From: Cyclobacteriaceae bacterium
GTDB taxonomy: Bacteria > Bacteroidota > Bacteroidia > Cytophagales > Cyclobacteriaceae
Assembly (NCBI GenBank): GCA_019638255.1
Contig: JAHBUD010000001.1
Coordinates: 2,728,001-2,792,000 of the forward strand
Length of the DNA stretch: 64,000 bases
Reading direction: 5' to 3'
Part shown: positions 8,321 through 54,183 of the stretch, piece by piece
How the letters are laid out: every line of letters begins with the position of its first letter
Position numbering within the stretch: position 1 is the first letter of the stretch
Position numbers and translations under genes: made by a program
Notes under the pieces: generated by a model
Told to the model about the DNA's origin: nothing
Seen by the model: only the letters and a program-made list of their open reading frames with translations
Databases searched by the model: none

Positions 8321-8357
8321 AAAGTCCTGATCCCGATGAACATCGAGCCAGGACTTT
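8321..8357 (-). terminator. intrinsic terminator of the tRNA-like RNA gene
   Basis: A 9-bp stem AAAGTCCTG / CAGGACTTT encloses an inner 5-bp stem CGATG / CATCG. On the minus strand it is followed by the T-rich run TGTTTTTG. It lies about 30 bases after the 3' end of the minus-strand tRNA-like element and well before the start of the acyl-CoA ligase gene. It therefore most likely ends a short independent transcript. Confidence 0.75.
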
Positions 8358-8386
8358 AACAAACTTAACTAACCATGAAGAGCAGC

Positions 8387-8534
8387 TGTAGAGGGAGGGT
8401 TCGAACCTCCACGGGGAAGTTAGCTACAGGACATACAGAGAGAACATTTAGTGGTCAACCCATTATCCTGCGTTTATCCTTGACTCCCCACCCCCGAGAC
8501 AGGAGGGCTTGTCTGCCAGTTTCAACACCCTACA
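8387..8534 (-). ncRNA. 148-nt tRNA-like RNA with class II cloverleaf and enlarged variable region
   Basis: Read on the minus strand: acceptor strand TGTAGGG pairs with CTCTACA (one G-U). TG then leads to a class II D-arm TTG-AAACTGGCAGA-CAA closely like tRNA-Leu, with G18G19. Next come G26, an anticodon arm CCCTC-CTGTCTC-GGGGG and, at the 3' end, a canonical T-arm GGAGG-TTCGAAC-CCTCC. Between the anticodon and T arms lie about 80 nt instead of the usual 13-20, closed by a GGGGA/TCCCC variable stem. The formal anticodon would be GUC with an unusual pyrimidine at position 37, and CCA is not encoded. It has its own terminator downstream. It could be a tRNA pseudogene with an insertion or a regulatory tRNA mimic; I cannot call it a functional tRNA. 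Confidence 0.55.
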
Positions 8535-8656
8535 GTGTAATTGATACAACAAAACAATAATTTATTTGAATTCATGACAACAGATCAATGATAATTTTAC
8601 AATATTTTTAAATTTTTATATATTTACTAAAAATTATTCAAAATCATCTACTAATC

Positions 8657-9121
8657 ATGACTGAAAATTATCAAGTTGACAATACCGACCTGAAGATTCT
8701 GGAAATACTTATGCAGGATGCTAAAAGACCCTTTACTGAGGTTGCCAAGAAGGTTTTTGTATCCGGTGGAACAATACACGTGCGCATGAATAAAATGGAA
8801 GAAGCAGGAATAGTGGAGAAGACTACCCTAAAGGTGAACTATGCCAAACTTGGATACGACATCACGGCCTTTCTCGGTATCTTCCTGGAAAAGAGCGCTT
8901 TATACGAAAAAGTTTTAGCCAGACTTAAATCTATTCCCGAAATCACTAACATCCACTATACCACGGGCAACTACAGCATGTTCTGTAAAATCCATTGCCG
9001 CGATACCAATCACCTTAAAGAGGTTCTTCACGACAAGATTCAGCAGGTAGATGGAATAGAGCGGACCGAGACCATGATCAGTCTGGAAGAGAGCCTGGAT
9101 CGTAATCTGGACTTGGTATAA
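8657..9121 (+). CDS. Lrp/AsnC-family transcriptional regulator
   Basis: The 154-residue protein has an N-terminal winged HTH (DLKILEILMQDAKRPFTEVAKKVFVSGGTIHVRMNKMEEAGIV, about residues 10-52) and a C-terminal RAM ligand-binding domain (about 65-150, with YDITAFLGIFLE and ITNIHYTTGNYSMFCKI). Members sense amino acids and form dimers to octamers. It stands alone upstream of the suf operon with 86 bases between. The strongly AT-rich 100 bases before its ATG probably hold its promoter. Whether it regulates suf is not shown by the sequence. Confidence 0.92.
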   Translation: MTENYQVDNTDLKILEILMQDAKRPFTEVAKKVFVSGGTIHVRMNKMEEAGIVEKTTLKVNYAKLGYDITAFLGIFLEKSALYEKVLARLKSIPEITNIHYTTGNYSMFCKIHCRDTNHLKEVLHDKIQQVDGIERTETMISLEESLDRNLDLV

Positions 9122-53958: not shown

Positions 53959-54006
53959 AGCTCTGCAGCATCACATTGTTATCCAGAGAGCCCGGTAAGG
54001 TGGGTT

Positions 54007-54121
54007 ACTTATCTTCGGCTGATGTCGCGATCAACCTGGGATTTAGCACAACGTTAAACAATCGTTTGAACAGGATGCTAAGACGTCAAAGGGCCCAATC
54101 CCTCGGTCTTTCTGGATAAGT
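54007..54121 (-). promoter_or_regulatory. SAM-I riboswitch (S-box) of the methionine operon
   Basis: On the minus strand CTTATCCAGAAAGACCGAGG begins the aptamer, followed by GGATTGGGCCCTTTGACGTC, TTAGCATCCTG, a variable arm, TGCTAAATCCCAGGTTGA and the closing GAAGATAAGTAAC. P1 is CTTATC (54120-54115) with GATAAG (54013-54008). Conserved S-box parts (CCAGA, GAGGGA, GGGCCC, GCATCC, GCTAA) are in order. It lies about 50 bases before the start of the homocysteine-domain gene, so high SAM should lower metH and probably metF expression. Confidence 0.9.
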
Positions 54122-54183
54122 GATTGCAAAGAAACACAATAAGTGCTTAAAAAGAAAAAGGCAAAGACGTATTTTTACAGCAC

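Follow-up and report, generated by a model that had tools for sequence, protein, structure and literature searches.

A conserved tRNA-like RNA of the Cytophagales, linked to an AsnC-type regulator and to GatCAB, may serve asparagine metabolism

Most of the Cytophagales that we examined, together with members of related families, carry a tRNA-like RNA (TLS RNA), and we regard its existence as a conserved RNA as virtually certain. Sequence comparison establishes this RNA as a family and defines its fold, identity nucleotides, promoter motif and terminator; it also shows that the RNA co-occurs with GatB and is linked to a gene for an AsnC-type regulator. We consider it rather probable that the TLS RNA is a non-decoding tRNA under the control of AsnC, which AspRS would load with aspartate and on which GatCAB would then make asparagine, in the service of asparagine metabolism. 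A bolder reading, to which we give slightly less than an even chance, is that it represents a new class of functional RNA, a tRNA-shaped cofactor used solely for amino-acid biosynthesis: asparagine would be made via AspRS and GatCAB, the asparagine-sensing regulator would have the TLS RNA as its target where other bacteria have a gene for asparagine synthetase, and the retention of GatCAB in this clade despite the presence of AsnRS and GlnRS would be explained. If this is true, RNA-bound amino-acid synthesis has a dedicated RNA and is more than a by-product of translation, and the old puzzle of GatCAB beside AsnRS and GlnRS is answered for that clade. The family appears to be undescribed and is missed by standard tRNA and Rfam searches; we found no description of it in the searchable literature, the coverage of which was incomplete.

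The window, a stretch of 64,000 nucleotides from a Cyclobacteriaceae genome, encodes the TLS RNA on the minus strand at 8386..8534, with the mature 5' end at 8534 and the discriminator base G73 at 8386. The first-pass annotation had placed a class II tRNA-like RNA of 148 nt at 8387-8534; the locus was right, while G73 lies one base beyond that end and the mature form is 149 nt long. The minus strand, the canonical T-arm, the GG of the D-arm, U37 and the formal anticodon GUC that it described are all seen in the sequence, as is the oversized variable region of about 80 nt. The acceptor stem has seven base pairs, formed by the 5' strand UGUAGGG (8528..8534) and the 3' strand CUCUACA (8387..8393), and U1 partners A72 at 8387. 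The D-arm UUG-AAACUGGCAGA-CAA (8509..8525) has a stem of three base pairs, the 10-25 pair of which covaries between U-A, A-U and G-C. The anticodon arm CCCUC-CUGUCUC-GGGGG (8491..8507) presents G34, U35, C36 and C38, which are AspRS identity bases, and the T-arm GGAGG-UUCGAAC-CCUCC (8394..8410) is canonical. Between these two arms lies the extended variable arm (8413..8489). It starts with stem V1 (8486-8489 with 8413-8416), continues with a conserved internal loop in which AGUCAAGGAUAAA (8473-8485) faces CUAAC (8419-8423), and ends in a variable apical hairpin, V2, that holds GGGUUGACCAC. Thermodynamic folding of the single window sequence was no better than that of shuffles (z -0.21); a single-sequence fold therefore proves nothing here, and the evidence beyond chance is comparative.

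The first-pass annotation had also suspected a dedicated transcript with a strong terminator within about 30 bases, and both points find support. A Rho-independent terminator hairpin, AAAGUCCUGGCUCGAUGUUCAUCGGGAUCAGGACUUU (8321..8357), lies about 28 nt downstream on the same strand (-20.4 kcal/mol, z -4.4) and is followed by a U-rich tail with a U-run. Upstream, a probable promoter (8550..8580, minus strand) consists of a -33-like TTG (8580-8578) and a -7-like ATTGTTTTG ending at 8550, as judged from a conserved motif, TAnnTTTG, that is repeated at the -7 position upstream of most TLS RNA copies in other lineages. Copies that do not lie beside an AsnC gene (e.g. L127, L147, L019) share a conserved leader, AACAAAGACAAAAGGTCT, which spans from the -7 box to the mature 5' end and can form a small hairpin. 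CCA is not encoded in the gene, and the same holds for nearly all ordinary tRNAs of that genome. The base following G73 is C74 in the window copy and in 230 of 233 TLS RNA copies, again as in nearly all ordinary tRNAs of the genome.

The conservation of the family rests on several comparisons. BLAST detected the RNA in 40 of 59 relatives. When 20 trimmed cores were aligned no gap was needed, and all 500 of 500 pair cells are standard, with both sides changed in 7 of 25 pairs; sliding the partner columns as a control left 55-65% paired cells, versus 100% in the true alignment. Among 277 distinct copies nearly all pairs of the acceptor, D, anticodon and T stems are kept through several pair types. 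The anticodon stem alone occurs as CCCUC/GGGGG, CCCUC/GAGGG, CCCGC/GCGGG, CCGUC/GACGG, CCGCC/GGCGG and CCCCC/GGGGG. A covariance model (R1) sets the members, which score at least 80 bits in the genome searches and measure about 108-195 nt, apart from ordinary Leu and Ser tRNAs, which reach at most about 66 bits at 82-87 nt; nearly all full-length members reach at least 70 bits. Of the 146 genomes of the order, 119 carry the TLS RNA by this model. The fold is kept in relatives across the Cytophagales, and no Rfam 15 family matches it at the curated threshold. Beyond the order we find it in three families of the same class (f22, f23 and f26) and, in another class, in f66. Hosts among the matches listed from a pattern scan include Algoriphagus, Cyclobacterium, Dyadobacter, Spirosoma, Aquirufa, Fulvivirga, Chryseolinea and Chitinophaga, among others.

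These data bear directly on the suggestion of the first-pass annotation that the locus might be a tRNA gene decayed through an insertion. In favour of this, the TLS RNA is overlooked by ARAGORN and by the Rfam tRNA model, and its insert varies widely in length. The order-wide conservation, the spread beyond the order and the compensatory changes in several arms, along with the promoter motif, the terminator and the linkage to AsnC and GatB, refute this idea, and we leave it next to no chance. We also rejected a group I or other intron, since there is no Rfam match and the variable region is, across copies, a hairpin free to differ in length while the core that bears it hardly does. A mobile element or phage RNA was discarded as well, given that no match was found in plasmids or phages and that synteny with AsnC is kept. 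ARAGORN reported no tmRNA at the locus, and the conserved anticodon arm speaks against a tmRNA, in which that arm is missing and an mRNA-like domain encodes a tag.

Tandem arrays of the TLS RNA are frequent within the order, with up to six copies. Arrays of four to seven copies were seen at L291:368-1398 (G545), L288 (G466), L249 (G499) and L241 (G557), and the formal anticodons inside the G545 array are CUC and UUC, which are Glu-type. One genome (G048) holds a 76-nt class I version that has no variable arm (L268:2839-2914, minus strand), with the loop CUAUCUC; it keeps U1-A72 and G73 and has a terminator-like sequence of its own, and no TLS RNA copy was detected beside the AsnC gene of that genome.

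The TLS RNA is probably not a decoding tRNA, as far as its sequence can tell. Elongator tRNAs have U at base 33. In the TLS RNA copies this base is U in 225, G in 37, A in 10 and C in 9 (U in 80%), position 37 holds a pyrimidine (U or C) in 98%, and at base 34 we find G in 88% and another base (A, U or C) in the remaining 12%, including the Glu-type anticodons CUC and UUC. Variation at base 34 would alter the codon that is read, and it is because U33 is not conserved, position 37 is nearly always a pyrimidine and position 34 varies that decoding seems improbable. The alternative, a functional elongator tRNA-Asp (or tRNA-Glu) of unusual class II form, is very unlikely. It could draw on the Asp anticodon GUC, on G73, on the canonical T-arm and on a cloverleaf with GG in the D-loop and UUCRA in the T-loop, which the family shares with decoding tRNAs. 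Against it, the combination of U33 and a purine at 37 is not kept in the family: U33 is replaced in about 20% of copies and 37 is a pyrimidine in 98%. In addition base 34 drifts between Asp and Glu meanings, and the window's genome has a normal tRNA-Asp (GUC). The family also departs from bacterial tRNA-Asp in lacking G1-C72, with U1-A72 in its place throughout, and in having A or U at position 10 in most copies.

Which enzymes might act on such an RNA? The bacterial Asp identity set comprises G73, G10, G34, U35, C36 and C38 (PMC9976931). In all parsed TLS RNA copies U35, C36, C38 and G73 are kept, with G34 in 88%, while G10 is missing from most copies, which argues against Asp charging. The U1-A72 pair is present in 277 of 277 distinct copies and G2-C71 in 276. 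U1-A72 of tRNA-Asn is recognised by bacterial GatCAB (PMC4206432), and amidotransferases use the same pair on tRNA-Gln (PMC9976931). We compared the RNA with 30 ordinary tRNAs read from the window's genome, seven further ones being left out, and among these 30 only tRNA-Asn and tRNA-Gln have U1-A72. The genome's own tRNA-Asp has G1-C72 and the loop CUGUCAC, from which the TLS RNA loop CUGUCUC differs only at position 37. Judged by these nucleotides, the TLS RNA looks like a substrate of both AspRS and GatCAB. As bacterial tRNA-Asp has G1-C72, AspRS would have to tolerate the U1-A72 of the TLS RNA. A non-discriminating AspRS tolerates U1-A72 on tRNA-Asn in organisms having that enzyme. Charging with aspartate is uncertain for those lineages that have A, U or C at position 34, the Glu-type anticodons included.

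The first-pass annotation had called the formal anticodon GUC with U37 unlike any normal tRNA-Leu or tRNA-Ser, and the comparison supports that the TLS RNA is neither. The SerRS rule for tRNA-Ser asks for G73, C72, G2-C71, R4-Y69, C11-G24 and a long variable arm (PMC9976931); all TLS RNA copies have A72 instead of C72, and 11-24 is U-A in most. For tRNA-Leu, A73 and a Leu anticodon would be expected, and the family has G73 and the GUC-type loop. The TLS RNA shares with the class II tRNAs a Leu-like D-arm and a long variable arm, but it differs from them in U1-A72, G73, the GUC-type loop and the size of its variable region (about 80 nt), which includes a conserved internal loop.

The distribution of GatB follows that of the TLS RNA. 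The presence of GatCAB in the hosts was scored via GatB; only the best candidates were scored in the genome scans, and the co-occurrence counts ignore kinship. All 48 TLS RNA-positive genomes tested have GatB (22/22 and 26/26). Among them is G147, which at first gave a weak partial match and carries a full 195-nt copy. In the same class outside the order only 1 of 28 TLS RNA-negative genomes has GatB; this exception, G099, has no GlnRS and therefore needs GatCAB for Gln-tRNA. When the GlnRS-positive genomes of the class are considered, 26 have both the RNA and GatB, none has the RNA without GatB, one has GatB without the RNA and 14 have neither (Fisher p 4e-10, ignoring kinship). The one with GatB and GlnRS and no TLS RNA is G474. 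Adding three genomes of other classes (G092, G202, G234), which were scored for GatB and GlnRS and have both without the TLS RNA, changes these counts to 26, 0, 4 and 14 (p 3e-8, again ignoring kinship). The RNA and GatB are jointly missing in members of f22 (G060, G178, G410) and f23 (G075, G171), within f15, and in G488, which yielded no more than two gatB fragments. The window's genome encodes AspRS, AsnRS, GlnRS and GatB; with these AsnRS and GlnRS, the charging of its tRNA-Asn and tRNA-Gln does not depend on GatCAB. It has three genes of the AspRS/AsnRS synthetase class, including one AspRS and one AsnRS, which led us to drop a dedicated second AspRS. The hosts match a situation, GatCAB kept despite AsnRS and GlnRS, that has been surveyed and is partly unexplained (PMC4206432).

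Genes for asparagine synthesis separate the two groups of genomes less clearly. AsnA is only weakly anticorrelated with the TLS RNA (5/45 versus 7/23, p 0.09), and none of the 14 Bacteroidota asnA loci that were read has an AsnC gene next to it; a simple replacement of asnA was set aside on both grounds. Proteins with an Asn_synthase domain (PF00733) are also found in most TLS RNA-positive genomes tested, and their presence fails as a discriminator because paralogues are common. One genome, G485, has the TLS RNA, GatB and GlnRS, and neither AsnA nor Asn_synthase was matched in it.

The recurrent neighbour of the TLS RNA is a divergent gene for an Lrp/AsnC regulator (98 loci). In the window this gene lies at 8657..9121 on the plus strand, 122 bp from the TLS RNA, and the best solved relative of its product is E. 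coli AsnC (46% identical). Within the order the AsnC regulator is present in 117 of 119 TLS RNA-positive genomes and in 8 of the 27 negative ones, the other 19 being without it (p 1e-15, ignoring kinship); two of these eight (G050, G524) have a copy of the RNA beside AsnC that is cut by the contig end. The two genes are divergent in 57 of the 90 genomes with listed coordinates, with a gap of 122-193 bp in 54, and AsnC is not adjacent to the RNA in about a third of the order. This arrangement recalls E. coli asnC-asnA, which is likewise divergent with a gap of 151 bp, and in which AsnC acts as an activator of asnA as long as asparagine is absent (PMC4482635). The difference is that AsnC's neighbour here is the TLS RNA and not the gene for asparagine synthetase A. 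Upstream of the promoter lies the element ATTTAAAAATATTGTAAA (8596..8613, minus strand), tentatively a candidate AsnC operator or, alternatively, an A-tract UP element. When learned on copies that are not adjacent to AsnC, the element was enriched in held-out AsnC-adjacent copies, 49% of which exceeded the 95th percentile of shuffles, and it was not seen upstream of the 30 ordinary tRNAs of the genome. It is AT-rich, and only some of the remote AsnC promoters carry it; that AsnC binds there is a guess.

In the mechanism that we favour, a promoter of its own would drive the TLS RNA, and the transcript would undergo tRNA-type processing and CCA addition, as C74 and the intact T-arm suggest. AspRS would read G34, U35, C36, C38 and G73 and charge it with aspartate, and GatCAB would read U1-A72 and amidate the product to Asn-RNA. 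The charged RNA would be kept out of decoding, given that the family conserves neither U33 nor a purine at 37 and varies at position 34. Asparagine would then be released or passed to another acceptor, and the divergent AsnC may control both the TLS RNA and its own gene by the asparagine level, as E. coli AsnC does with asnA. We are least sure of what becomes of the asparagine, and free asparagine as the product is less likely than the mechanism as a whole. Weak points are the Glu-type anticodons of some lineages, the exceptional genome G474 and the Asn_synthase proteins that most hosts have; the mechanism also leaves the large variable arm with its AUAAA/CUAAC loop unaccounted for.

The fate of the amino acid also gives room for an unlikely alternative, in which the TLS RNA would donate Asp or Asn outside the ribosome, for instance to lipids, the cell wall or a peptide, free asparagine not being the product. 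The evidence from the identity nucleotides and from GatCAB would be identical, and non-translational tRNAs in peptidoglycan synthesis are known (PMC3399842). However, among the minority of neighbour clusters that were annotated no transferase was recognised as recurrent, and the neighbour that does recur is AsnC, a regulator of asparagine synthesis in E. coli.

The first-pass annotation had thought of a tRNA mimic used for regulation. That the RNA is a mimic and no normal Leu or Ser tRNA has held up, while its conserved features speak for charging and GatCAB amidation in asparagine metabolism rather than for a regulatory role. Such a role, whether as a charging sensor, as a decoy for AspRS or GatCAB or as a larger sRNA with a tRNA-like domain, seems to us improbable. 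The enlarged variable arm, the conserved internal loop and the apical motif GGGUUGACCAC do resemble a protein- or RNA-binding element, and B. cereus tRNAOther offers a precedent (PMC3399842). Yet it is exactly U1-A72, G73, U35, C36, C38 and C74 that are conserved, which fits a substrate, even if a decoy would be compatible with the same pattern, and the multi-copy tandem arrays fit a bulk product better than a regulator. Like tRNAOther, the TLS RNA is a tRNA-like RNA that would stand outside decoding. Unlike it, tRNAOther carries a Trp anticodon, is a poor substrate for aminoacylation and in some Bacilli forms part of a larger regulatory RNA (PMC3399842), whereas the TLS RNA is order-wide, covarying and linked to AsnC and GatCAB; the two are not related by any feature tested.

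The closest parallel to the favoured mechanism is the GatCAB transamidation of Asp-tRNA-Asn to Asn-tRNA-Asn, with which the TLS RNA shares U1-A72, G73 and the proposed succession of AspRS and GatCAB. The known substrates are decoding tRNA-Asn and tRNA-Gln, whereas the TLS RNA combines the anticodon bases of the Asp set with an enlarged variable arm and, having neither a conserved U33 nor a purine at 37, looks like a dedicated, non-decoding RNA.

In loci of the same genus (L005-L012 and L016, about 1501-1678) palindromes (CCTGCCG...CGGCAGACAGG and CCCCGAC..GTCGGGG) are inserted in the apical hairpin of the variable arm; they are missing from the window copy (compared with 8424-8472). These inserts look like dispersed palindromic repeats placed into a tolerant site. 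At L118 and L113 partial relics of the TLS RNA (TGTAGGGTGTTGAATCCCGATAGC...GGCAGACAAGC and TGTAGGGTGATGAAACCTGCCTACGGCAGGC), broken by palindromes, stand directly before an intact copy. Elsewhere in the window a SAM (S-box) riboswitch lies at 54006-54122 on the minus strand (63 bits), and nothing else in the window reaches the curated threshold of an Rfam family.
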